Below, one piece after another: positions 1,329 to 16,337 of a stretch of DNA of 64,000 nt. This DNA is from Thermoanaerobaculia bacterium (GTDB lineage: Bacteria; Acidobacteriota; Thermoanaerobaculia; Multivoradales; J023). Both the position numbers and the translations under genes were made by a program. The notes under the pieces are model-generated. The model searched no databases. It had not been told where the DNA came from and worked only from the letters and a program-made list of their open reading frames with translations. The stretch's first letter is position 1. Every line of letters begins with the position of its first letter. The stretch covers positions 1-64,000 of the forward strand of contig JALCBJ010000032.1 in the NCBI GenBank assembly GCA_028066595.1, written 5' to 3'.

Positions 1329-2708
1329 TCAATGGTCCGGCCAGGCGAAGAGGCCAGGGTTCAGAAGTCCCTTGGGGTCGTAGCGTCGCTTGGCTTCACA
1401 AACCGAGGACCAGGCGTCGCCGAACTGGCGGGCAAAGCGCTCCGAATCAAAACGCATGGAGCCCGTGAGGTAGTAGGTGCTGCCCATGGACAACGCGAGG
1501 TCGACGAAAGCACGAGAGGCGGCGACGGTATCTTCGGCGGCACTCTGGGGGACACGGGAGTAGAGGCCGATGCCCATAAAGAGCGGTGTATCGGGTACAC
1601 GGAACATGGGTCGCTCGAGACTGTCGCGCGTCATGGGCCACAGGATTGTGTGCTCGACGTGAACGATGCGAGGGAAAATGTGCTGCTCGACCTTGGGGAG
1701 GAAGTCTTCCAGCCGATCCCACGGAACAAGAACGTCGACGAACACTTCGGCGATCCGCGGCGAGATGTGGGTGTCGGCGTGGCCGAGAATGATGAAGTCG
1801 CGCAGGTCGAGGTCTTCGGCATATATCCACTTCGAGAAGCTCAGATCACCGAGAAAAGCCTGGTCGTCAAAGGCTTCTGAATCGTCCGCCTCCAGAGTGA
1901 CGTTGAGTGGGTATAGGTAGGAGTGGAAGGGCAGGCGCTGATCGCCCTGGACCCGAAGACCGTGGTAGCACGGACGAACCATCGCGTCGATGAACTGAGC
2001 TGCGTCACCTTCGACCAGGCGCACATGATCTTCGAGATGGGCACCCAGGTCGTCATAGAGGAGGAAGTAGGTGCGAACACGGCGGCCGCAACGGCGCAGG
2101 CGCTGACGCGATTTGGTGATGATGCCGAACTGACCAAATCCGCCGAGCACGTGATCGAACAGGTCGCGATTCTCATGCTCGCTGCAAGACACTAGCTCGC
2201 CGGTCGGCGTCACAACTTCGAGACTCTCGCAATGGTCGATCTGGGTACCGTAGCGAAAGGTAGACATTCCCAGCCCGGCCGCCGATAGGGTGCCTCCAAC
2301 GCTTGTGCATACGTAGCTGGTGAGAGCAGGAGGGAGCCAGCCCTGAGGCACCGTCATCTCGACAACATCTTTCCACTGGGCCGCGCCTTGGGCTTCTATG
2401 GTGCCGGCTTCCGAGTCGAGGGGCCCGATTCGATCCAAAGAACGGAGGTCGAGAACCAGGCCACCCTCGTTCAGGCTTTGGCCGGCGAAGGAGAACCCTC
2501 CAGCGCGCGGCGAGACGGGAAGATCGTGCCGGTTGGCATACACGACCAACCGGGCGACCTCATCAGCTGTCGCCGGCCGCGCAACAGCTTTCGGCACGCG
2601 GCGGGTGATGGCACCGTAGTCGACAGAGAAGGCGTCGAGGTGTTCGGGGTCAGTATGAACAGGCCCAGAGCAAAGATTCTGCAGGTCTGTCTTCAGCGTC
2701 TTCGACAT
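1329..2708 (-). CDS. FAD-linked oxidase (VAO/cytokinin dehydrogenase-like), last gene of lanthipeptide operon
   Basis: The 459-residue protein has a PCMH-type FAD-binding domain at about residues 38-210. Visible elements are RAGGFSFAGQS near 68-78, then the SVGGTLSAAGLG and YGTQIDH stretches. The C-terminus has YDPKGLLNPGLF, typical of the vanillyl-alcohol-oxidase superfamily. The closest overall resemblance I recognise is to cytokinin dehydrogenase-like oxidases. In many such enzymes a His in an RGxGHS loop links FAD covalently; the aligned residue here is Phe72, so FAD is probably non-covalent. The gene starts 39 bases after the ABC exporter stops, on the same strand, so it is likely co-transcribed with the lanthipeptide genes. 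A role in oxidising the peptide is inference; it could also be an unrelated passenger. Confidence 0.75.
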   Translation of the reverse strand: MSKTLKTDLQNLCSGPVHTDPEHLDAFSVDYGAITRRVPKAVARPATADEVARLVVYANRHDLPVSPRAGGFSFAGQSLNEGGLVLDLRSLDRIGPLDSEAGTIEAQGAAQWKDVVEMTVPQGWLPPALTSYVCTSVGGTLSAAGLGMSTFRYGTQIDHCESLEVVTPTGELVSCSEHENRDLFDHVLGGFGQFGIITKSRQRLRRCGRRVRTYFLLYDDLGAHLEDHVRLVEGDAAQFIDAMVRPCYHGLRVQGDQRLPFHSYLYPLNVTLEADDSEAFDDQAFLGDLSFSKWIYAEDLDLRDFIILGHADTHISPRIAEVFVDVLVPWDRLEDFLPKVEQHIFPRIVHVEHTILWPMTRDSLERPMFRVPDTPLFMGIGLYSRVPQSAAEDTVAASRAFVDLALSMGSTYYLTGSMRFDSERFARQFGDAWSSVCEAKRRYDPKGLLNPGLFAWPDH

Positions 2709-2747: not shown

Positions 2748-4958
2748 TCAGCCACCGGCCACGCCGACGGTGTCGTTCTCGAGCTGTTGACGAATCAACC
2801 GTGCGTAGTGGCCGTCGAGATGCAGCAACTCCTCGTGGGTCCCGCGCTCGCGGATCTGCCCGGCGTCGAGCACCAGGATGCGGTCGGCATCGCGAATGGT
2901 GCTGAGGCGGTGCGCGACGACGATTCGGGTACAACGCAACGCCTTGAGTGTGGTGTCGATACGCTGCTCGGTGAGCACATCGAGATGGCTCGTCGCCTCG
3001 TCGAGAAGGATGATGCGGGGTTCCGCTAGAAGCGCCCGCGCCAACGCAATCCGCTGCAGCTGTCCGCCGGACAACGAACCGCCACGTTCGGAGATGATGG
3101 TCTCGTAGCCCATGGGCATAGCATCGATCTCATCGTGGATCGCCGCCCGCCGTGCGGCCTCTCGAATGGCTTCCAACGGCATGCCGACACGGGTGAGTTC
3201 GATGTTCTGACGGATCGAGCCGGAAAAGAGGGCGGGGTCCTGCAAGACGACGCCGAACTGCTGGCGCAGCGAGTTCAGCGCGATCTCGTCCGCAGAAACG
3301 CCATCGTAAAGGATCTCGCCAGCGCTCGGCGAGTAGAGACCGAGCAGCAACATGCCGAGCGTTGTCTTGCCGGAGCCGGTCGGTCCGACGATGGCAATCT
3401 TCTCTCCCGGCTCGATGTGCAGCGACACTTTGTCCAACACCTTCGGCGACTGCTGCGTGTAACGGAAGCTGACTTCACGCAACTCGACTCCACCCAGCAG
3501 ATCGAAGCTCGGCAGATCGGATCGTAACGGCTCGGGTTCGGTCTCGAGGACATCGAAGATACGGACGAAATGGGCGGCGCCGAACTGAAGCTGCTGGATG
3601 ATCCCGACGAGGGAGCCGAGGGGTTGGAGGATCGCCACGCCGAGGGCGTTGAAGGCGAGCATGGTGCCCAGGCTCATGTCGCCCGTGAGGACAAGCCGCG
3701 CACCGACGAAAAGAAGTGCGAGCGGCGCCAGGCTGCCGATGGCACCGCTAGACGTATGGATGACGGCATTGAGGAAGTTGCGCCGAAGGTTGAGATTGAG
3801 GCGCTCGAAGAAGAGATTCGACCAGCGATCGAGGGCCTGAGTCTCGGATCCGGTGGCCTTCAGTGTCGTGATTCCGGAAAGGGCCTCGACGAGGTAGCCC
3901 TGCGAGACACCGTCCGCCTGCAGGCTCTCCTGCAATAGACGCCGAACCCGACGCGCCAAACCGAGGGGAATCGAGATCTGCACCAAGCCGAGGACGAGGA
4001 CGATCATGCCGAACAGCGGCGCCTGGGAGAGAAGGATCGCCAGGTAGACCAAGACCAGACTACCGTCGAGAATTGCGGCCAGGGTCTGATTGGTCAACAC
4101 CTCGCGGATGATCGTATTGCTGTTGAGGCGCATGATCAGGTCGCCACTGCTGCGTTGCTGGAAGAAAGGCAACGGCAAACGAAGCATGTGCTCGAAGAAG
4201 CCGAGCATCATCTGCGAGTCGAGTCGAGCCTGCAGATAGATGAAGAACGAGTGCCTGAGGAAGATCGTCACCGTCTGCATTACGACGACAACTCCGAGGC
4301 CTAGCCCGAGGATTGCAAGGAGGCCGTCGAGACTGCGCGGCAGGATCTGATCGACGATGATCTTGGTAGCGACCGGTAAGACCAAACCGAGCGCCTGCAA
4401 CAGAAGCGAGCCGGCGAGGATCTGGAGCAGAACGCTCCGTATTCCTGACACGCCAAGGACGTAGCGAAGGTAGGTGCGCCAGGGGCTCACACTCCGTACC
4501 GCCCGGCGATCGAAGTGGATGCTGGGCTCGAAAGTCAGAATGATGCCGGTGAATCCCTCGTCGAACTCCCGTGGTGTCAGGGTTCGACGCCCGAAGGCGG
4601 GATCGACGATGTCGATGGCTTTCGGTGACCATCGCTCGACGACGATGAAGTGCTTGAAGTTCCAATGAACGATCGCAGGGAGCGGCAGGAACTTGAAGTG
4701 TTCGGGCTCTCCCGAGAAGCAACGCGTGCGCAAACCGTGTTCGCGTGCGGTCTTGGCGAGGAGCGCGGCACTGACGCCGTCGCGTCCGGCGCTAATGCAG
4801 TCGTGAAGGTCGGCGACACGAGTCTTACGACCATGAGCCGTCAAAACCATGGCGAGGCAGGCGACACCGCACTCGGCATTACTCTGTTGAAGGATCGGTC
4901 GTATACGACGCGTCCGAAATGCGGCTGACTTCGTGCTGGAGTCTCTGGCCCGCATCAT
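2748..4958 (-). CDS. Peptidase-containing ABC exporter (LanT-type, C39 family)
   Basis: The 736-residue inner-membrane exporter would cleave the leader after a GG motif and export the modified peptide. The N-terminal C39 cysteine-peptidase domain shows QSNAECGVAC with Cys30, then His103 in FKHFIVV and Asp119 in VDPAFG, a complete catalytic triad. A membrane domain follows at about 165-480. The nucleotide-binding domain has Walker A GPTGSGKTT, signature LSGGQLQR and Walker B IILLDEATSHLD. Its two adjacent ATG codons lie directly after the stop of the HlyD-like gene, so the two are translationally linked. The precursor at 11755-11970 carries the matching GG leader end. In NHLM-type systems the exporter works with a HlyD-like adaptor, which fits the gene upstream. 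Confidence 0.9.
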   Translation of the reverse strand: MMRARDSSTKSAAFRTRRIRPILQQSNAECGVACLAMVLTAHGRKTRVADLHDCISAGRDGVSAALLAKTAREHGLRTRCFSGEPEHFKFLPLPAIVHWNFKHFIVVERWSPKAIDIVDPAFGRRTLTPREFDEGFTGIILTFEPSIHFDRRAVRSVSPWRTYLRYVLGVSGIRSVLLQILAGSLLLQALGLVLPVATKIIVDQILPRSLDGLLAILGLGLGVVVVMQTVTIFLRHSFFIYLQARLDSQMMLGFFEHMLRLPLPFFQQRSSGDLIMRLNSNTIIREVLTNQTLAAILDGSLVLVYLAILLSQAPLFGMIVLVLGLVQISIPLGLARRVRRLLQESLQADGVSQGYLVEALSGITTLKATGSETQALDRWSNLFFERLNLNLRRNFLNAVIHTSSGAIGSLAPLALLFVGARLVLTGDMSLGTMLAFNALGVAILQPLGSLVGIIQQLQFGAAHFVRIFDVLETEPEPLRSDLPSFDLLGGVELREVSFRYTQQSPKVLDKVSLHIEPGEKIAIVGPTGSGKTTLGMLLLGLYSPSAGEILYDGVSADEIALNSLRQQFGVVLQDPALFSGSIRQNIELTRVGMPLEAIREAARRAAIHDEIDAMPMGYETIISERGGSLSGGQLQRIALARALLAEPRIILLDEATSHLDVLTEQRIDTTLKALRCTRIVVAHRLSTIRDADRILVLDAGQIRERGTHEELLHLDGHYARLIRQQLENDTVGVAGG

Positions 4959-5543
4959 TCAGGGGTCCAGCCTAGATCCGAATCCGGGAAGCAGTGAGAG
5001 AACCCGCTGATGGTCGACCTCCACCTCGACGCGCAAGGGCCTACTCTGCCAGGGCTGGAGCGGTGCGCCTTCGCCGAGACGGGCCATGGCGACGACGACA
5101 GGATCACCTGCCAAGAACGGGTCGGCTGGCTCGATAGCGAAACGCTGTCGCAACGCGCTCGCGCTGACGAGGGTTGGCTCGACCTCGTCGATCCGAGTCA
5201 CAAAAAGCGGCTCGAACGAGCTGCTTTCCTGTGCGTCAAAAACCAACAATCTCTGCTCGGGTAAGACCCGATCGAGACCCTCGGAAGGTAATGACACGAT
5301 GAGGGACCAGTCGCCGGGACCTGATTCGACCAGCAGACCTGCGCCGCCGAGGGTCACGGGAACCTCCGCGACCCCGGTCAGGCCCACGAGCCCGGCGAGG
5401 CCAGCCAGAAGCAACCAGATCCACGGAAAGAGCTTCGGCTGGACCAACCGGAGGACGACAATCTTCTGTCGGTTCTCCAGGTAGAGCCGGTGCGCGTGTT
5501 CGCGGAAGATGGACTCGCGCTCTTGCGTAGAGGATTCGCTCAT
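4959..5543 (-). CDS. Short HlyD-like membrane protein of the lanthipeptide exporter
   Basis: About 194 residues from ATG 5543; a TTG three codons upstream is an alternative start, and neither has a clear ribosome-binding site. The N-terminal part is cytoplasmic and rich in charged residues (RLYLENRQKIVVLRLVQP), followed by one membrane helix near residues 41-60 (WIWLLLAGLAGLVGL). The outer part then carries barrel-sandwich-like strands (VPVTLGGAGLLVESG). It resembles the reduced membrane-fusion subunits of NHLM-type bacteriocin exporters and lacks the long coiled-coil hairpin of full HlyD proteins (about 400 residues). It is adjacent to the C39 ABC exporter, so it probably forms an adaptor with it. 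Confidence 0.6.
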   Translation of the reverse strand: MSESSTQERESIFREHAHRLYLENRQKIVVLRLVQPKLFPWIWLLLAGLAGLVGLTGVAEVPVTLGGAGLLVESGPGDWSLIVSLPSEGLDRVLPEQRLLVFDAQESSSFEPLFVTRIDEVEPTLVSASALRQRFAIEPADPFLAGDPVVVAMARLGEGAPLQPWQSRPLRVEVEVDHQRVLSLLPGFGSRLDP

Positions 5544-5579
5544 CAGAAGCAACTCGAGGGCCGATGTCCGAAGCTACGC

Positions 5580-6299
5580 TCAGTGGTACGGGATGATCAT
5601 CCACGGCAAAGCGTACGCTTCGGCCACCAGAGCACGAAAGCGCCTGCGCACCCACCTCGGATCGAGATGGCCCGCGGTCGACTCTTCCCTTTCCGGGCTT
5701 CCGTCGTCGATCGACGCCACGAAGTCTACGATGTCCCGAAACCAAAACGGATCGCCGCCTTCCGATAACCGAAGCGGGAACTGGCCCTCGAGCATCTGCC
5801 AGCCGATTTCCACGTGCCGGGCCATCGTGTCCCAGCGGTACCGCGCTCGCGCGACTTGTGCCCGCTGTATCTGGACGTCGAGGTAACGAACGCCGAAGAT
5901 GATGAGGAAGCGATGCCTGTCGATGGCGTCGTCGACGGCTTTCAGGCTATGCTGGAACATCGCTTCCACTTGCTCCCACTGTCGATGCCGGTAGTGATCG
6001 TAGGCGACAGCTGCGGCGTGGTACATATCGACGATACGGCAGACGGAATCTGACGCGTCTTTCAGCTCGGTCGCCGCCGCGCCACTCGAGCCGGCGAGCA
6101 GGGTGCGTGCCGCCTCCATGTCACCCCGATGCATCCGGCGGACGGCCTGACGGATGCGCTTCGTTACCCGCAGAGCGCCGGACCGCTGATAAGTCGCTGC
6201 CCAAGCCTCGGCCTCCCGATCGACACATTCGAGCAGGCTGAGCCAACCATCGGCTTGGCCCAGAAAGCGCACGATCTCTTTCTCGAAATCATCACTCAT
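5580..6299 (-). CDS. Unrecognised 239-residue helical protein in lanthipeptide operon
   Basis: No family recognised with confidence. The protein looks all-helical and soluble, with Arg-rich amphipathic helices (RVTKRIRQAVRRMHRGDMEA near 44-63; VQIQRAQVARARYRWDTMAR in the middle). It has no signal peptide and no Cys cluster. The stretch with R, H, GD and AA spacing loosely recalls translin-like RNA-binding helices, but this is weak. It lies between the SpaB_C-like gene (35 bases upstream) and the HlyD-like gene (36 bases downstream) on the same strand, so it is very likely part of the operon. Roles in leader recognition, tRNA binding or self-protection are all possible and untested. Confidence 0.7.
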   Translation of the reverse strand: MSDDFEKEIVRFLGQADGWLSLLECVDREAEAWAATYQRSGALRVTKRIRQAVRRMHRGDMEAARTLLAGSSGAAATELKDASDSVCRIVDMYHAAAVAYDHYRHRQWEQVEAMFQHSLKAVDDAIDRHRFLIIFGVRYLDVQIQRAQVARARYRWDTMARHVEIGWQMLEGQFPLRLSEGGDPFWFRDIVDFVASIDDGSPEREESTAGHLDPRWVRRRFRALVAEAYALPWMIIPYH

Positions 6300-6334: not shown

Positions 6335-7351
6335 TCACGAAAACTCTCCCGCGAACGGAAAGATCGAAAAGTCTTCATTCGACCGTGGCTGCGATCGAAA
6401 CGTCCGGGCCAGGAGGTGGTGCGTGAAAGCTTCATCAACCCGGCTGAGGCCAAGAGCGTTTGCCCAGCCATGAAAGAGCTTGAAGACGACGGGAAACGAA
6501 CGCTCCGCGGAGAACGGGTCGACGATCACGCACGCTGCCTTGGCGCAGCGTTCCGCCTCGTTGACCAGACGCGTCACGGCCTTTGCAGCAGGCGTGGGTT
6601 CGGCTGGAGTGAGATCGAGAGTCGACCGCAGCAAGTCGATCTGAGCGCTACGGTCGGCGGCGAATCGTTCGAGGCGGCGGAGCATCTCCTCACCGTGGGC
6701 ACTGCCGCCGTTGCGTTTGAGCAGAGGAGCACGGATCAGCCAATCGCGATGGTAGTGCACGTAGTCCTCCGCCCTGGGCCCGAGCCCCGGCAGAGCCTCG
6801 GCCAGGAGCCCGATCAACACGGCCTGACGGCGCGTAGTGAGCCCCTCGCCCTCGTCCTCCGCGGCGGCATCAACGATCGTATCGCTGGCTAGCGACAGGG
6901 CATGGGTCAGCGCCTCTACACAAGCGTCGTCTTCGAGAAAAGGCGACGGACCGAGTGATACAGGATGGCGCCGATAGGTCGTGAAGCTCAGCAGCGGACG
7001 GCAATCGTCTTCGGAGCCGTCTTCGACGTCGATAGGGGGCGCACGGGACAGAGAGGAAACCGTAGTCTCGGCCGGCTCGGCGGGCGGTAAGGAGACCGGA
7101 CGATCCAAGAAGTATGCCGCCGCTTCGTGAAGGGCTCCACGGAGCGACTCCTCTCGGTCGTTGTCGGCATGCAGCCGCAACTTGAGGCACTCACCAGACT
7201 CGTCGTAGCGCAACCACCACATCGCCGCGCCGCGGTCCTCCTGTTCGAGCGAGCGCCAGAACCGAGCAACGACCCGACCAATCACGAGATCAAGCGCACA
7301 GTCCGCAGAGAGATCGGCCGTGACAATGGGGTCGGCGGCATGGCCTGTCAT
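6335..7351 (-). CDS. Stand-alone SpaB_C-like (thiopeptide-type/lantibiotic dehydratase C-terminal) protein
   Basis: The 338-residue protein resembles the SpaB_C glutamate-elimination domain family. MWWLRYDESGECLKLRLHAD matches the conserved start, where an aromatic strand precedes RY and a K/R-LRL strand. LLSFTTYRRHPVSLG followed by an acidic patch matches the YRRE-type middle motif. The helical C-terminus ends with a polar HH pair (DEAFTHHLLART). In class I systems this domain eliminates glutamate from tRNA-dependent glutamylated Ser/Thr; relatives form the pyridine ring in thiopeptides. LanM does not need it, so its presence beside a LanM is unusual. It starts 4 bases after the LanM stop. 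The family call rests on pattern recognition only. Confidence 0.6.
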   Translation of the reverse strand: MTGHAADPIVTADLSADCALDLVIGRVVARFWRSLEQEDRGAAMWWLRYDESGECLKLRLHADNDREESLRGALHEAAAYFLDRPVSLPPAEPAETTVSSLSRAPPIDVEDGSEDDCRPLLSFTTYRRHPVSLGPSPFLEDDACVEALTHALSLASDTIVDAAAEDEGEGLTTRRQAVLIGLLAEALPGLGPRAEDYVHYHRDWLIRAPLLKRNGGSAHGEEMLRRLERFAADRSAQIDLLRSTLDLTPAEPTPAAKAVTRLVNEAERCAKAACVIVDPFSAERSFPVVFKLFHGWANALGLSRVDEAFTHHLLARTFRSQPRSNEDFSIFPFAGEFS

Positions 7352-7355
7352 ACGC

Positions 7356-10300
7356 TCAAATCTCCGCGTTGACCGGCATGGGGGCAGGATCCACTGGATC
7401 CAGGATTCCGGAGATCGGCCTCAACGCCAGAACTGCAGGTACCTTGTCGGGCGCCAGTCGACGGAGGAGGCCGAAGCCTATGCCAGCGAGGCCGACCATC
7501 AACCCGGGCGTCTCGATTGCCATCGGTAGGCCACAACGCCAACTGCCTAGGCTGAGCTGGCCTGCGACGTCTTGGTAGCGACGGTCGATGTCGTCGCGGA
7601 GGTCGAGTTCGGGACAAGCCGCATCCGCACAGACAAGCGATTCGAGATTGCCCAGGTCGCCGTGGCAAAGGGAATGGTTGCGGCCGAAACCTCCAGCGAG
7701 GGTCGTACGTGCTGCGATACGGATCTCCTCGCGCAGAACATCGGACGGCTCGTGGCGGAGGATGAGGGCACGCGACACGATGACACCGGGCGCACCGTGG
7801 CACCAGTTGACTGGATCGCCGACGTCCTCGTCTACCCGTAGGTCACGCCAGTTACCGCTCTTCGGCCGGAACAAGCTGCGTTCGTATTCGAGTGCCCGTC
7901 GGGCCGTCTCGCGCAGCGTCTTGTCACCGGTGATCGCGGCGGCTTCGAAAAGGGCGGCAGCGATACCACCGGCACCGTGTGAGAAGCCAGCGAGGGGCTC
8001 CTCCGCCTCGTCCGTCGTGTACCAGCCGCAGCCCCGGGGCAGGTCGACCGCCGCCGCTACGAGGCGTTGCGCAGCCTGTTTCGCCAAGCTCTCCAGTACG
8101 AGATCATCGGATCCTCGGCGCATGGCCGAGAGGGCGAGAATGACGCCCGCCGACCCGGAGATGACGTCGAAGCTGTTGTCGGCGGCGATCCGCGGCCCGA
8201 GTCTCGCCACCAGGTCGAGAGCGGTACGTCGCAGAGCCGCATCGCCCCAGAGCGCCGCCAACTGATCGAGGGTATATGCCAGGCCGACCGTGCCCGTGAA
8301 GGCACCGATCGAAACTTCCGCGTCTTCGGCCGCGACACGGCGCAGAAGCGTTTCGCAAGACTGCCGGGCAAGTAGCCTTGCTGCAGGGTCACCGGTGACT
8401 TCGCCGAGGCAGCCGAGAAAGAGGGTGACGCCCGCTTGGCCGCCGTAAAGACTGTCGTCGAGGTAGCCGATCTTGAACGCACCGCGTGGCGCCGGACGCA
8501 CGCCCACCCAGCGCACTGAGTCATCGTGGAGGGCTTGTTCGATCAAGTGGCTGCCGATTCGCGCCGCAAGGTTCTCCAGGCTCACTCCGGGCGTTGCCGA
8601 CCGCGGGTGAGTCCGTGATTCTACCGGCACTGCGTCGCGTTCTGGGTCGGCGGTGGAGAGCAGCGCGATCGAGGCGCGGATGTACCAAATCTGACGCACG
8701 AGGTCGGCTTCGGAGAAGCCTTGTAAACGTTCGAATAGGCCTTCGACCGCCGACTGGCTGAAGAAATCCTCCAGCACCTCGCCGTCTGGTGTGAAGAGCG
8801 CACGAGATCTTGGTCGAGTGGTGAAGCGGGGGATATCACGTTGCCACAAGGCGCGCTGCTCGGCGGCAATCAACCGTTGAAGGAAGGGTCGGCGAGCTAC
8901 CTGTTTCCAAAGCTTGTCGAAAAAGCGCTGTCGATCGAGCGCGTCGCGAAGCAGGTCGGGGTGGAAGCTCTCACGCAACATGAGCCCATAGACTGCAGTC
9001 GGGCGAAGCAGCACGCGAACCTCGTGTTCGAGCATGGACGCAATCGGGCCGTCTTCCGCCAGCCAATCGTCCCGCCGCTCCAACAGATGACGATAGAGGG
9101 CCGAAAAGCCCTCGACAATGGCGTCGACGTAGTGGATGGCGTCCGCCGGCCGGCCCTCGACCGTCGGACGGTGGTGCGATCGCAACGAGATCGTTCTCGT
9201 CCTGCGTGCGTAGTGCATCGTGTCGGTCTCATGGTCGGCCCAATATGCTTCGGGGCGCGGCGGCTCCTGACCTTCGGGGCCGCCCATACCGCTCACATCG
9301 AGTCCTGGGGAATCTTCGTTTTCCCAGTTGCGAACGGGAAGCAAGCCAACCTCGACCAAGGTGTTCCTGAGCAGGTCGTCCGCCCTGGGATCGTCGAGAG
9401 GAGGGCCGGGTTGGAGTAGCGACTCGAGATCGATGACGTACGGTGTGTCACCGACGGCGATGAGATTCTCGAAATGAATGTCGGTCGTTCGCAGAGCGTA
9501 AAGGAGGGCGAGGTACGACCCCTGGCGCAGATAGAAGCGTCGCACCTCCTCCTCGGTCGCGCACGGCTCGGCGATCAGTTGCTGCATGTAGCCGTAGCTG
9601 CCGCGATCAAGAGCGGCGACCTCAGGTAGGGTCGGCTCGAAGCCCTCCTGCGCCAAAGTACGCAACACCTCCTGGAATGCCTCTGTCATCGCCAAGGACC
9701 GAGGTTTGTAGACGAGACGGCGGCCCGATGTGAACACAAGCAAGGCCACTGAACGTCCGCCGTCATGGCGGTCACCTGCGCCGAAACGCACGCCTGAAAG
9801 GCGGTCGCCCGCCACAAATCCGCTGAAGGTGCGCAGGATAGCGGGCCAGTCGGACACGAGGCGTTCGAATAGCTCAGCTACCACGTCCTTCCAGACGTCG
9901 ATCGCCTCGACTAGCTGGCGCGTCAGAACCGGCACCTCGCGCAGAATGGCGAGGGCCCGCTGTGTGTCAGCGAGCAGGACGGCAAACTGCCGGAATCGCT
10001 CCCTAGGGTCATCGTGGATGAGCTCGCCTTGAAGACGCGCTATGTTCATCTCGAGGACGAGAGTGCGCACAGGCCAGCTCAGCAGCTCGAAAGGCAGGGT
10101 GCCGAGCACTAGCTCCGTAATCCTTTCGGAGCAAACGGGACCGTCGGAAGGCGCGCTCGCCAGGGGCCCGAGACGGGCGCCTAGCTCGCTCGTAGCGTGG
10201 CGCACCAGTGGCTCGATGAAACCCCAGAACGAGCCTTCCACGGTGCCTTGCAAGATCGGCGGAGCCGCGATCCGCTTTTCCGACGACGAGCCGCCACCGT

Positions 10301-10562
10301 AGCAGGTCTCGATGCGTCTCAACCAGGCTGGCCGCTCGCCGGGCGCTTCTTCGACGGACTCCCCTAGAAGGGAAGTGAGCTTGCTGTGGTCGAGGCCGTC
10401 GAGATCCAACCGACGTCCGAACAGCTCACGGTCTTCGAATGGCTCGTCAGCGCTCCAGCGGGCGAGGCGAAGGCGACCACGATCGAGGTCGACCGGACCG
10501 TAGGTCGGTCGACGCAGCCTCTCGGACACGGTCAGCGTAGCGCCGTAGGGAAAGTCACTCAC
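7356..10562 (-). CDS. lanM: Type II lanthipeptide synthetase LanM
   Basis: The bifunctional enzyme phosphorylates and dehydrates Ser/Thr, then adds Cys thiols to make (methyl)lanthionine. The N-terminal dehydratase (DUF4135) has the kinase-like Lys in LVYKPRSL (near 286), DIHFENL (near 361-367) and the metal-binding VIDLE (near 377-381). The C-terminal LanC-like cyclase (about 680-1068) has GFSHGAGG, NWCHGAPG and CHGDLG, giving the Zn ligands Cys near 921 and Cys/His near 966-967. I place the start at GTG 10562: it overlaps the upstream stop (GTGA) and has GAGG 7 bases before it, whereas the longest frame begins at 10592 without such support. The length of 1068 residues is normal for LanM. 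It sits between a conserved unknown gene and the SpaB_C-like gene. Confidence 0.95.
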   Translation of the reverse strand: MSDFPYGATLTVSERLRRPTYGPVDLDRGRLRLARWSADEPFEDRELFGRRLDLDGLDHSKLTSLLGESVEEAPGERPAWLRRIETCYGGGSSSEKRIAAPPILQGTVEGSFWGFIEPLVRHATSELGARLGPLASAPSDGPVCSERITELVLGTLPFELLSWPVRTLVLEMNIARLQGELIHDDPRERFRQFAVLLADTQRALAILREVPVLTRQLVEAIDVWKDVVAELFERLVSDWPAILRTFSGFVAGDRLSGVRFGAGDRHDGGRSVALLVFTSGRRLVYKPRSLAMTEAFQEVLRTLAQEGFEPTLPEVAALDRGSYGYMQQLIAEPCATEEEVRRFYLRQGSYLALLYALRTTDIHFENLIAVGDTPYVIDLESLLQPGPPLDDPRADDLLRNTLVEVGLLPVRNWENEDSPGLDVSGMGGPEGQEPPRPEAYWADHETDTMHYARRTRTISLRSHHRPTVEGRPADAIHYVDAIVEGFSALYRHLLERRDDWLAEDGPIASMLEHEVRVLLRPTAVYGLMLRESFHPDLLRDALDRQRFFDKLWKQVARRPFLQRLIAAEQRALWQRDIPRFTTRPRSRALFTPDGEVLEDFFSQSAVEGLFERLQGFSEADLVRQIWYIRASIALLSTADPERDAVPVESRTHPRSATPGVSLENLAARIGSHLIEQALHDDSVRWVGVRPAPRGAFKIGYLDDSLYGGQAGVTLFLGCLGEVTGDPAARLLARQSCETLLRRVAAEDAEVSIGAFTGTVGLAYTLDQLAALWGDAALRRTALDLVARLGPRIAADNSFDVISGSAGVILALSAMRRGSDDLVLESLAKQAAQRLVAAAVDLPRGCGWYTTDEAEEPLAGFSHGAGGIAAALFEAAAITGDKTLRETARRALEYERSLFRPKSGNWRDLRVDEDVGDPVNWCHGAPGVIVSRALILRHEPSDVLREEIRIAARTTLAGGFGRNHSLCHGDLGNLESLVCADAACPELDLRDDIDRRYQDVAGQLSLGSWRCGLPMAIETPGLMVGLAGIGFGLLRRLAPDKVPAVLALRPISGILDPVDPAPMPVNAEI

Positions 10563-11632
10563 GTCGCCACCTCGGCGGTACGGCGGGCCCAAAAGTGGCG
10601 GACGCCGAGGTACGCTTTGGCGGCGACCATACGGTTCGGCAGAATTCCGATCTTGAAGTGGTTGAGAGTTCTGGCGAACGTACTCATGACCTCGGACCCA
10701 AAGGAGCGAGAGCCCTTGAGGAGATGGGCAGGCCAGAGGTCGAAATCGTCGGCCTCAGTGGAGTATCCCAACCAGTCGAACAGAACGGTGGCCTTGTCCC
10801 GGCGACACATTCCGTGACGTTGCAGAAGACCGAGAAGTCCCCTGGTCTTCTCACGGGAGCCGTCGCTGATGACGCACTCCAGGCCTATCGCCGGCCTCAC
10901 GGTGGTCGACACCGACAGATCTAGGTTCATTCCGTCGACGTAGGCGGCCAGTTCTTCCAGCACCAGGCGCAGTAGCTCGCGGCTACCGGGCCAGCCGATG
11001 GCCTCCAGGTAGTCGAGAATAGCCACCCGCGACAAACGCCGAATGCACAGCCGGACATCGTCCCCCGGCCGGGCCAACAGGAGGCCCACTTGGAAGATGA
11101 CTCCGCCTTCAGGCAGTTCTGCGAAGCAGCGCGAGAGCAGATCACGCTGAGACGCTGACAAGTGGCAGCCGCGCAGTCGCTCGATCAGCTCGAGACTCAG
11201 TTCGGGATAGTTCCTCGGCTCTCCCGGAGAGTAGCCGAAAAATAGGCTCGGTTCGGGGACGCCGTGGAAGCCCTCGGGAAGGTCGAATTCGAGCCAAGAG
11301 TCCCGAATCGGCGACAGCCTCGGATTGTGGTGCCAATCCGCAAGAAATCGCCCGACAACGGTCCAGGGCGAACGCTTGCCCAGCGGTTCCGGCGCACTCA
11401 CTTCCGCACCGCCATCCGCCCACGCAGCGCGGCTTCCGTCGTCTTCGATCACCGCGACGAGAAAGTCAGCGTCGGCGCGAGAACTCCCGAGATGGCACTC
11501 GAAGCCGAAGTTCGACGATGGGGGCAGCCTCTCGGCAACCCGAGAGATGCGCGCGGAGTGCTCCGGCTTCACGAGTGCGGGCGGAAGATGGGGAGCGACA
11601 ATCTCGAAATAGTTCCGCGTAGAGAGCGACAT
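10559..11632 (-). CDS. Unknown protein between lanthipeptide precursor and LanM
   Basis: 357 residues, no named family recognised. No signal peptide or membrane segment. The middle and C-terminal parts look like a compact mixed fold: PSLFFGYSPGEP, GVIFQVGLLLARPGDDVRLC, YLEAIGWPGSRELL, VRPAIGLECVISDGS, then KIGILPNRMVAAKAYLGVRH. I recall conserved hypothetical proteins with this FQVG / IGWPG / GLEC / KAYL pattern beside LanM genes elsewhere, but I cannot verify it. It follows the precursor gene by 122 bases and overlaps LanM by 4 bases, so stoichiometric co-expression with LanM is likely. A scaffold, substrate-delivery or immunity role is inference. Confidence 0.75.
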   Translation of the reverse strand: MSLSTRNYFEIVAPHLPPALVKPEHSARISRVAERLPPSSNFGFECHLGSSRADADFLVAVIEDDGSRAAWADGGAEVSAPEPLGKRSPWTVVGRFLADWHHNPRLSPIRDSWLEFDLPEGFHGVPEPSLFFGYSPGEPRNYPELSLELIERLRGCHLSASQRDLLSRCFAELPEGGVIFQVGLLLARPGDDVRLCIRRLSRVAILDYLEAIGWPGSRELLRLVLEELAAYVDGMNLDLSVSTTVRPAIGLECVISDGSREKTRGLLGLLQRHGMCRRDKATVLFDWLGYSTEADDFDLWPAHLLKGSRSFGSEVMSTFARTLNHFKIGILPNRMVAAKAYLGVRHFWARRTAEVAT

Positions 11633-11754: not shown

Positions 11755-11970
11755 TCAACCAACCTCAGGCTCAGGCCCATCATCTCCAGGCGGCGGATTG
11801 TCGCAGCTCCAGCAAAGACAGGTCGGGCCGCCGACCACGTCTTCCATCGCCTCATCGGTAAGCTCGATCAGTCCAGCCGGGTTCTCTGGCAGAAGAGCGC
11901 GCTCTTCTTCGCTGAGCTCGGCTCGGAACTCGGAATCCCTCCATGCGCGGATGATCTTCTCGTTCTTCAC
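11755..11970 (-). CDS. lanA: Lanthipeptide precursor peptide (mersacidin/lichenicidin-type leader)
   Basis: 71 residues from GTG 11970, with GAGGAG 6-7 bases upstream. The leader follows the type II pattern: IIRAWRDSEFRAELS, LPENPAGLIEL, then MEDVVGG, where GG at 47-48 is the C39 cleavage site. The predicted core is residues 49-71, PTCLCWSCDNPPPGDDGPEPEVG split as PTCLCWSC plus a 15-residue acidic Pro/Gly tail. Dehydratable residues are Thr50 and Ser55; Cys are 51, 53 and 56. At most two thioether rings are possible, so one Cys stays free or is oxidised. It is the first gene of the operon, behind tandem direct repeats at 12059-12092. Confidence 0.9.
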   Translation of the reverse strand: MKNEKIIRAWRDSEFRAELSEEERALLPENPAGLIELTDEAMEDVVGGPTCLCWSCDNPPPGDDGPEPEVG

Positions 11971-13820: not shown

Positions 13821-14579
13821 CTACTCTTGGCGGACCACAGACCCGACGTTCTCGCCTCGCAGCACGCGCAGAATATTGCCCTCGACGCTCAGGTCGAAGA
13901 GCTGGATAGGGATGTGGTTTTCGCGACAGATGCTGATGGCCGCGGCGTCCATGAATCCGAGGCTCCGCTCCAAGACCTGTTGGTAGGTCACGGTTTCCAG
14001 CAGCTCGGCATCCGGGTGTTTTCTCGGATCAGCGCTGTAGATCCCGGGAACCTTGGTGGCCTTGAGCAGGACTTCCGCCTTGATCTCGGAGGAGCGGAGT
14101 GCCGCCGCAGAGTCGGTGGTGAAGAAGGGGCTGCCGGTGCCGGCAGCAAAGATCACCACGCGACGCTTCTCCAAGTGACGGATGGCACGACGCCGTATGA
14201 AGCGCTCCGCCACTTCGCGGATCTCGATAGCGGTCTGGACGCGCGTATCGACTTTCCGCTTCTCCAGTGCATCCTGGAGTGCCAAGGAGTTGATCACGGT
14301 CCCCAGCATGCCCATGTAGTCGCCGGTGACGCGATCGATACCCTGCTGGCTAGCCGCCAGCCCTCGGATGATGTTGCCGCCGCCGATGACGACGGCGATC
14401 TGTACTCCGAGGGCTGCGGCTTCCTTCAGCTCGTCGGCAATCTTGCCGACGACCGTCTCGTCGAGGCCGAAGGGCTTGTCACCCATCAGGGCCTCGCCCG
14501 ACAGCTTGAGCATCACCCGCCGGAACACGGCTGGGAATGCATCGGTCTCTGGCTGCTCGGTCGTCGGCAGGTCGGCCAT
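13821..14579 (-). CDS. pyrH: UMP kinase
   Basis: 252 residues. It phosphorylates UMP to UDP in pyrimidine nucleotide synthesis. Family motifs are visible: MLKLSGEALMG, VIGGGNIIRG, DYMGMLGTVINSLALQDAL, and the ATP-binding GTGSPFFTTDSAAALR. The N-terminus has about 15 extra residues (MADLPTTEQPETDAF). The gene begins 6 bases after tsf ends, the classical rpsB-tsf-pyrH-frr order. Confidence 0.97.
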   Translation of the reverse strand: MADLPTTEQPETDAFPAVFRRVMLKLSGEALMGDKPFGLDETVVGKIADELKEAAALGVQIAVVIGGGNIIRGLAASQQGIDRVTGDYMGMLGTVINSLALQDALEKRKVDTRVQTAIEIREVAERFIRRRAIRHLEKRRVVIFAAGTGSPFFTTDSAAALRSSEIKAEVLLKATKVPGIYSADPRKHPDAELLETVTYQQVLERSLGFMDAAAISICRENHIPIQLFDLSVEGNILRVLRGENVGSVVRQE

Positions 14580-14585
14580 GCCCGA

Positions 14586-15239
14586 TCAGGCTCCGGCCGC
14601 GGCCGCTGCGACCTCGGCAGCGAAGTCTTCCTGCTTCTTCTCGATACCCTCGCCGAGCTCGTAGCGAACGAACCGCCGAACCTGGATGTTCTCGCCGATG
14701 GTCGCCACCTTCTCGGTGATCATCTGCTGCAACGTCTTGTCGGGATCCTTGACGAAGGCCTGCTCGAGCAGCACGGCCTCGGCGTAGTACTTTTCGATCT
14801 TGCCCTCGACGATCTTGGGAATGATGTTCTCGGGCTTACCCTCGGCACGCATCTGCTCTGCATAGATCTCCCGCTCGCGGTCGAGGACATCCCCGGTCAC
14901 TTCCTCGCGACGGACGAAGCGCGGATTGGCGGCAGCGATGTGCATGGCGATATCGCGCACGAGGTTCTGGAAATCGTCGGTCCGGGCCACGAAATCGGTC
15001 TCGCAGTTGACCTCCACCAGCACTCCGATCTTGCCGCCGGCGTGAATGTAGGAGCCAACGGCTCCCTCTGCGGCCACACGCCCGGCCTTCTTCTCGGCCG
15101 CTGCGATGCCCTTCTTGCGAAGCGTATCGACCGCCTGTTCGAGGTCGCCGGAAGTCTCTTCCAACGCCTTCTTACATTGCAGCATGGGAGCGCCGGTGCG
15201 CTCGCGAAGCTCCTTCACCATCTGAGCGGTGATCTTCAT
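14586..15239 (-). CDS. tsf: Elongation factor Ts (short form)
   Basis: 217 residues. This is the guanine-nucleotide exchange factor for EF-Tu. The UBA-like N-terminus [20 protein letters not shown] and the TDFVAR motif (as [13 protein letters not shown]) are intact. It is shorter than the E. coli protein (about 280 residues) and closer to the Thermus-type short EF-Ts with one core subdomain. A strong stem-loop lies in the rpsB-tsf spacer. Confidence 0.96.
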
Positions 15240-15307
15240 GGTTCTCTCTCCTCGGTACTTTCGGTATGGGTTCGTCGGTCTTGAAAATCGGTCTGTTCCA
15301 GACGCAC

Positions 15308-15344
15308 GACAAGGTCAGTGAGCGGATGCCCGACTGACCTTGTC
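15308..15344. promoter_or_regulatory. 12-bp stem-loop in the rpsB-tsf spacer
   Basis: GACAAGGTCAGT (15308-15319) and ACTGACCTTGTC (15333-15344) form a perfect 12-bp stem with a 13-nt loop. No T-tract follows on the minus strand, so it is not a classical terminator. It lies between rpsB and tsf, where an attenuator or processing site adjusts S2:EF-Ts ratios in other bacteria. A second 8-bp hairpin (15372-15390) sits closer to the rpsB stop. Confidence 0.55.
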
Positions 15345-15395
15345 TGGATCCCCACAGGCGAGATCTCTACCGCCGGGCGGCGCGCCCGGCGCGCC

Positions 15396-16337
15396 CTACT
15401 CTTCTTCCGTGCCGTCCGCTTCAGATGCCTCCGGCTCGGAGGAATCCGAGGCCTCGGTGGGCGCGGCCTCCTCAGCCGTAGCCTCCTCGGTGGCAGGTGT
15501 CTCGGCCGCCTCTTCGGCCGAAGCTTCCTCCGAAGGAGAGTCCTCGGCGGCGGCTTCCTCGGCGGTAGCTTCCGCAGCGGTGCCTTCCTCGGCGGCGGCT
15601 TCCGCAGCGGTGGCGGCCTCAGGTGCATCCTTGGCTGCGATCATCTCCGCCTCCTGGAGCTTGCCGGCTCCAGAGAGGTAGGCGTCGGCGATCTTGGCGG
15701 TGAAGAGACGGATCGTACGAATGGCATCGTCATTGCCGGGAATGACGTAGTCGATCTGCTCGGGATCGCAGTTCGTGTCGACGATGCCGATCACGGGGAT
15801 GCCCAGCTTGTTGGCCTCGGCGACGGCGATCGCTTCCCGCTTGGGATCGACGACGAACAGCGCGTCCGGCAGCGACGTCATCTCCCGAATACCTTCGAGG
15901 TTCCGCTGCAGCTTCAGACGCTCGCGGTCGAGCCGCAGCTTCTCTTTCTTCAGCAGCCCCGACTCCTCGTCGTCGAGGCGCGCCTCGATGTCCTTCAGCC
16001 GATCCACCGAGTTACGGATCGTGACGAAGTTGGTCAGCGTACCGCCGAGCCAGCGATGGGTGACGAAGTACTGACCCGAGCGCCGGGCGTGCCGAGTGAT
16101 CGACTCGTGCGCTTGGCGCTTGGTGCCGACGAAGAGAATCTTGCGACCGGTGCGACCGAGCTGGAAGACGTATTCTGCTGCCTCGTGAAAGCGGCGCAGA
16201 GTCTTCTGCAAGTCGATGATGTAAATCCCGTTCCGCTTGCCGAAGATGTAACGACGCATCTTCGGGTTCCAGCGACGGGTTTGGTGACCGAAGTGGACCC
16301 CCGCTTCGAGGAGATCGCGCATTCTGAGCTCGACCAA
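15396..16337 (-). CDS. rpsB: 30S ribosomal protein S2 with long acidic tail
   Basis: 313 residues. Residues 1-225 are ordinary S2: [68 protein letters not shown]. From about 226 a Glu/Ala-rich extension of roughly 85 residues follows (repeats like [18 protein letters not shown]), low-complexity and strongly acidic. Such tails occur on S2 in several GC-rich phyla. The gene overlaps nothing and starts 11 bases after rpsI ends. Confidence 0.97.

Follow-up and report, generated by a model that had tools for sequence, protein, structure and literature searches.

A stand-alone SpaB_C-fold protein in a class II lanthipeptide operon of Thermoanaerobaculia: a possible tailoring enzyme beside LanM

Introduction

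TbtD, PbtD and MroD are stand-alone proteins of the SpaB_C fold and act as [4+2] cyclases that form pyridines. In the MroB/MroC/MroD system, which is laid out over three proteins, Ser1 and Ser6 of the precursor MroA1 give the smallest of its pyritide rings, with 14 members (PMC9247985). The same fold is found in the C-terminal domain of NisB, MibB and MadB and in the split MroC type. For NisB, the exchanges R786A, R826A and H961A each retain glutamylation and lose elimination (PMC4979651). A survey of lanthipeptide clusters (Walker et al. 2020, PMC7268733) reported extra stand-alone proteins of the elimination-domain type, nearly all of them in class I clusters, and proposed that they carry out [4+2] or other chemistry. 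In CylM, residues D252, H254, R506 and T512 serve phosphate elimination (PMC4550811). A class II lanthipeptide that is prenylated at Trp is known from MppC (PMC12715784).

Here we describe an operon in a stretch of 64,000 nucleotides from a bacterium of the class Thermoanaerobaculia, phylum Acidobacteriota (the window; GCA_028066595.1, contig JALCBJ010000032.1), in which a SpaB_C-like gene adjoins lanM. Its product is a class II counterpart of the extra elimination-fold proteins of class I. An extra SpaB_C-like protein stands beside a complete dehydratase in both cases, but the dehydratase is of class I in the survey (PMC7268733) and a LanM in the window. With TbtD, PbtD and MroD, the group that includes its best structural matches, the window protein shares the stand-alone SpaB_C fold. 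In contrast to them, it lies far below the cut-off of the NF045556 family, keeps the equivalent of NisB R786, which is Tyr in TbtD, and is accompanied by a LanM, a Cys-rich core and a GG leader with a C39 protease, while no azole-forming enzyme is among the operon genes. The S/T-x4-S spacing of most precursor cores of its clade is also that of MroA1, and the MroB/MroC/MroD layout (PMC9247985) resembles the combination of LanB-N, separate eliminase and relative of the window protein in genomes G060 and G024. With the NisB, MibB and MadB domains and the MroC type, the window protein has the fold, the R786 and H961 equivalents and the HxxxN motif in common, but it carries Ser at R826 (Ile in one relative) and Ala at R966 and has no glutamylation partner. 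The MppC system likewise combines an ABBA prenyltransferase with LanM and a Trp-containing core; the text consulted on it mentions no SpaB_C-like protein (PMC12715784), and the window prenyltransferase differs in having no Pfam or NCBIfam match.

A SpaB_C-like member beside LanM has no glutamate to eliminate, which makes elimination and any other role separable. If the mass or rings of the product change with this gene, other chemistry has to be the cause. With a probability of about 0.42, we read the protein as a stand-alone enzyme that tailors the product of this class II operon, by [4+2]-type or other ring closure and not by elimination.

Results and discussion

The operon and its LanM

Eight genes run in one direction on the minus strand from 11970 to 1329. 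A gap of 122 nt follows lanA, every later gap is at most 39 nt, and the SpaB_C-like gene starts 4 nt downstream of lanM. In operon order, the features are:

11755..11970, minus strand: LanA precursor with GG leader and core PTCLCWSCDNPPPGDDGPEPEVG (open reading frame; homologue in G086)
10559..11632, minus strand: predicted aromatic prenyltransferase of the ABBA/DMATS fold, 357 aa (AlphaFold2 model and Foldseek)
7356..10592, minus strand: LanM, class II lanthipeptide synthetase with complete dehydratase and LanC domains (TIGR03897, 865.7 bits; listed start TTG, provisional)
6335..7351, minus strand: SpaB_C-fold protein, 338 aa, ATG start (PF14028 match, AlphaFold2 model with Foldseek, residue mapping)
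5580..6299, minus strand: P239 (homologues beside the SpaB_C-like gene in G086, G024, G023 and G059)
4959..5552, minus strand: short membrane protein P197 (its G086 homologue, 40% identical, immediately precedes LanT)
2748..4958, minus strand: LanT, C39 peptidase-ABC exporter (PF03412, PF00664, PF00005)
1329..2708, minus strand: FAD-linked oxidoreductase (PF01565, PF09265; 60% identical homologue adjoins LanT in G086)

Pfam and NCBIfam searches gave no family for P239 and no match for the short membrane protein, which from its sequence and position is the probable membrane-fusion partner of LanT. In five genomes, the P239 family accompanies the SpaB_C-like protein; at locus L033 of another genome, it is found with a prenyltransferase and without a SpaB_C-like protein. 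The FAD-linked oxidase at the operon end may oxidise the peptide. At the left end of the window, positions 190-930 look like a tRNA cluster, as read by eye only.

LanM aligns with LicM2 and CylM among PDB matches and carries the motifs GDRH at 273, DIHFEN at 371, VRVLLRPT at 525, WCHG at 930 and HSLCHG at 973. GDRH (P-loop) and VRVLLRPT correspond to D252/H254 and R506/T512 of CylM, respectively, and WCHG and HSLCHG are the LanC zinc motifs, so that the dehydratase, phosphate-elimination and zinc residues of a class II LanM are all in place. The initial annotation had held that LanM eliminates phosphate itself, and conservation of all four CylM-equivalent residues bears this out. Since they are intact, LanM should need no elimination help, and we rejected on the same grounds the reading that its neighbour eliminates phosphate in place of a damaged LanM. 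Assistance to a working LanM in this step would suit a gene 4 nt behind lanM, but is most improbable given these four residues and the arrangement in G086, where lanM adjoins convergent FAD oxidase and LanT genes and not the SpaB_C-like gene.

A class I glutamate eliminase would have a glutamylating LanB as partner. The absence of such a partner from the operon, pointed out earlier, extends to the rest of the genome as far as the draft covers it (95.4% complete): a LanB hidden elsewhere was sought with the Pfam LanB search and with a profile built on LanBs of this class, and neither found one. The profile search works, because it detects LanB in 20 of the 149 genomes of the class. As the assembly is a draft, LanB is likely, though not certainly, missing from this genome.

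Fold of the SpaB_C-like protein

Pfam PF14028 (Lant_dehydr_C) matches residues 20-317 of the protein at 32.8 bits, above the curated cut-off of 24.4. The NCBIfam model thiopep_ocin matches the N-terminal part below threshold (29.3 of 48.45 bits), and the pyridine synthase model NF045556 (equivalog cut-off 325 bits) does not match the window protein, its scores for the relatives being 17-26 bits. A phmmer search of PDB sequences with the protein as query gave no match, and the family profile of its own clade found nothing useful there. With RYGG-type neighbours added to this profile, the best PDB sequence match is TbtD (E 9e-7).

The AlphaFold2 model, built from a 6-row alignment, has pLDDT 78 and pTM 0.82. 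Its top Foldseek match in the PDB is the [4+2] aza-cyclase 8ejz (E 5e-7), followed by TbtD 5wa4, PbtD 5w98, MadB 9g04, MibB 5ehk, NisB 4wd9 and TsrL 7cww, each with probability 1.00 and with TM-scores (by query) of 0.44-0.60. For this predicted model, the [4+2] cyclases TbtD and PbtD rank ahead of the MadB, NisB and MibB elimination domains. All 18 matches at E<=0.001 are SpaB_C-fold enzymes; unrelated folds appear at E > 0.1. The modelled structure is of the SpaB_C fold, far beyond chance. The observation of a SpaB_C-like protein adjoining LanM is confirmed by the Pfam score, by confident Foldseek matches to SpaB_C enzymes only and by the distance of 4 nt to lanM. The comparison suggested with it, against SpaB_C, TbtD/PbtD and the NisB C-terminal domain, returned this same fold and not an unrelated one.

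Homologues occur in 6 of the 149 genomes of the class, our genome included, and are rare across the phylum; one narrow-pattern scan of the genome contigs recovered only one relative. They form a clade separate from all elimination-type SpaB_C proteins sampled here (support 100/99, in a tree with long branches).

Active-site residues

The NisB reference sites were placed by PDB alignment: in HIRLR, the second Arg is R786, while the Arg in ERYGG and the His in HVHNNR are R826 and H961, respectively. Elimination domains and clade were then compared by profile-profile alignment (probability 97-99%). In the window protein, R59 corresponds to R786 and H294 to H961, while S132 takes the position of R826, so the triad of class I glutamate eliminases (R786, R826, H961) is broken at R826. 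Among the aligned members of the clade, five of six have Ser and one has Ile at this position; at that of H961, five of six have His and one has Leu. The R966 equivalent is replaced by Ala. The R786 equivalent is retained across the clade, and R48, K57, R59, D108, R175, R202, D203, R207, D278, K291, N298 and H312 are invariant polar residues. TbtD has Tyr at the R786 position, where the clade has Arg. The 7cww structure (TsrL/TsrE) likewise has no Arg at the ERYGG position.

Because the R826 equivalent is lost, the protein is not expected to eliminate glutamate and, as judged from its residues, is probably not a glutamate eliminase by the known mechanism. This loss, together with an R786 equivalent that is kept, unlike the Tyr of TbtD, places the clade by sequence outside both the standard eliminases and the standard pyridine synthases.

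The nearest gene set

Counterparts of all eight operon genes are found in G086, spread over three contigs. Identities are 72-75% for LanA, 71% for LanT, 60% for the FAD oxidase, 43-61% for LanM, 51% for the prenyltransferase and about 40% each for the SpaB_C-like protein, P239 and P197. The LanA homologue has the core GSCVCWSCDNPAPKAPG. The gene order differs: lanM converges on FAD oxidase-LanT-P197, and the SpaB_C-P239 pair lies on another contig with other neighbours. For G086 we therefore speak of the same gene set, in a different order on three draft contigs, and not of a full orthologous operon. The SpaB_C, LanM and LanT frames are interrupted once each. As three genes of a draft are affected, an assembly error is likely; gene decay may be the alternative.

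The lower conservation of the SpaB_C-like protein, 40% against 43-61% for LanM, 60% for the FAD oxidase and 71% for LanT, would suit a non-catalytic accessory, whose fold binds peptide or leader and offers the precursor to P239, to the prenyltransferase or to LanM. Loss of the R826 and R966 equivalents points the same way, as does its pairing with P239 (window, G086) and, at most loci, with the prenyltransferase. The many invariant polar residues and an H294 equivalent in all but one member are, however, more than a pure scaffold seems to need, and we regard the accessory role as unlikely.

Relatives in the class

LanB-N adjoins or is fused to the homologue at four loci (G023, G024, G059 and G060:C20), G023 being the fusion to LanB. 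At G060:C20 and G024, the latter from the same GTDB family as the window genome, an additional SpaB_C protein with RYGG and HMTANR, and thus the full NisB triad, is present besides LanB. A search of G059 gave no SpaB_C with the full triad, and the homologue is the only recognisable LanB partner there. The stretches read at G060:C13 contain no dehydratase. LanC was found neither in G060 (99% complete) nor in G059, which sets these loci apart from ordinary lanthipeptide systems. The class has about 46 LanM loci, spread over 35 genomes, and the window is the only one in which a SpaB_C-like gene adjoins lanM.

The overlaps and fusions with LanB-N (G059, G060:C20, G024, G023) and the missing triad-keeping partner in G059 would suit an origin as the eliminating half of a split class I dehydratase that was retained, or stayed behind, when LanM took the place of LanB in an ancestral cluster, and that is now idle or nearly so. 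The retained R786 equivalent and the H961 equivalent in all but one member also agree with such an origin. For G059 and G023, the sole LanB partner and the LanB fusion, respectively, suggest an elimination-like role. For the window protein we nevertheless find a relic rather unlikely: no glutamylating LanB was found in its own genome, R826 is lost clade-wide, G060 and G024 already have triad-keeping eliminases, and the gene in the window, itself intact, runs in the same direction as the rest of its operon.

Several loci of the class show further arrangements. L025 (G024:C282:93501-113500) encodes four SpaB_C-like proteins (9026-10015 minus, 9881-11143 plus, 14392-15315 plus and 15186-16322 plus), a prenyltransferase, a LanB-N that lacks an elimination domain of its own and a short precursor whose core is WCSWRRCSNAPEEDSTPEEQ. 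At L026:14506-18270 (plus strand), a SpaB_C domain is fused ahead of LanB-N, in the order opposite to NisB, and LanC adjoins. A JmjC-type protein (L021:12851-14083, plus strand) adjoins a LanB/SpaB_C locus, and the sister locus L023 has an Asp/Asn beta-hydroxylase gene at 8327-9094.

Precursor cores and proposed function

Cys-rich cores adjoin the SpaB_C-like genes. The window core has one Thr, one Ser, three Cys and one Trp, the Trp being conserved in G086. In five cores, the first two Ser/Thr are 5 apart: TCLCWS (window), SCVCWS (G086), SWWCCS (G060:C20), SIWCCS (G060:C13) and SWRRCS (G024); the G059 and G023 cores have no simple S/T-x4-S pattern. A shuffle test on six cores treated as independent, four of which have the spacing, gives P = 0.0007, or 0.012 if any shared spacing is allowed, for a spacing that was noticed after the fact and in cores that may be kin by descent. 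The window pair has the MroA1 spacing, but Thr comes first and Cys compete for the dehydro-residues.

For the SpaB_C-like protein, we infer the following substrate, reaction and order of steps. LanM would dehydrate the core Thr and Ser and could form thioethers by itself. The SpaB_C-like protein would act next on the dehydrated leader-core peptide, most likely at the S/T-x4-S pair, in chemistry akin to TbtD and MroD, joining dehydro-residues by a [4+2]-type reaction or another ring closure. The core Trp would probably be modified by the ABBA prenyltransferase, and LanT would cut at GG and export the product. An extra modification is probable because the key elimination residue is lost; that it is ring closure between dehydrated residues is possible, and is favoured mainly because the S/T-x4-S spacing is shared with MroA1.

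Ring closure is further suggested by the [4+2] cyclases as best matches of the model, by TbtD as best PDB match of the joint profile, by the split of the clade from the elimination domains sampled (100/99), by the loss of R826, by the coexistence of the relative with LanB and a triad-keeping SpaB_C in G060 and G024, and by the elimination residues that LanM itself has. Against it, two LanM thioethers formed from two Ser/Thr and three Cys would leave nothing for a [4+2] reaction, and the first core residue is Thr, where the pyritide example (PMC9247985) has Ser. The retained R786 equivalent also indicates a site without the residues of TbtD, NF045556 does not match the window protein, and the elimination-like role suggested for the G059 and G023 relatives counts against ring closure as well. 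Pyridine formation that expels the leader is disfavoured because of the C39 protease and GG leader, with which a piperidine-type or other ring is compatible.

The tailoring reading can be taken further, to a hybrid lanthipeptide/pyritide route in which LanM feeds a SpaB_C-fold cyclase that sets a [4+2]-type or new cross-link within S/T-x4-S of a prenylated Cys-rich peptide. A phosphate-based dehydratase would then replace the Glu-tRNA one. We consider this combined proposal doubtful. If the protein is a [4+2] cyclase, such enzymes can be supplied by a class II dehydratase.

The prenyltransferase and its relatives

Pfam and NCBIfam searches gave no family match for the 357-aa protein. Its AlphaFold2 model (pLDDT 89.9) has a repeated alpha-beta-beta-alpha pattern and is predicted to form the barrel of such repeats that characterises ABBA prenyltransferases; the nearest Foldseek matches are DMATS1, AmbP1, MpnD, LimF and KgpF. 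Homologues in the class adjoin precursors that contain a single Trp and runs of Pro or Gly, WSSSDPPPPPPGGGG among them. By analogy with these single-Trp cores and with MppC, the protein is probably an ABBA prenyltransferase that modifies the core Trp.

At the level of loci, the SpaB_C-like protein and the prenyltransferase do co-occur. Single-protein searches alone place three of the six genomes with the SpaB_C-like protein among the ten with the prenyltransferase; profile detection was applied to SpaB_C loci only, which inflates the hypergeometric value.

The unannotated family of the 10559-11632 (minus strand) protein has homologues in about 13 of the 149 class genomes. Several of them adjoin NHLP-like precursors with single-Trp, Pro/Gly-rich cores that contain no Cys, which suggests a family of prenylated linear peptides.
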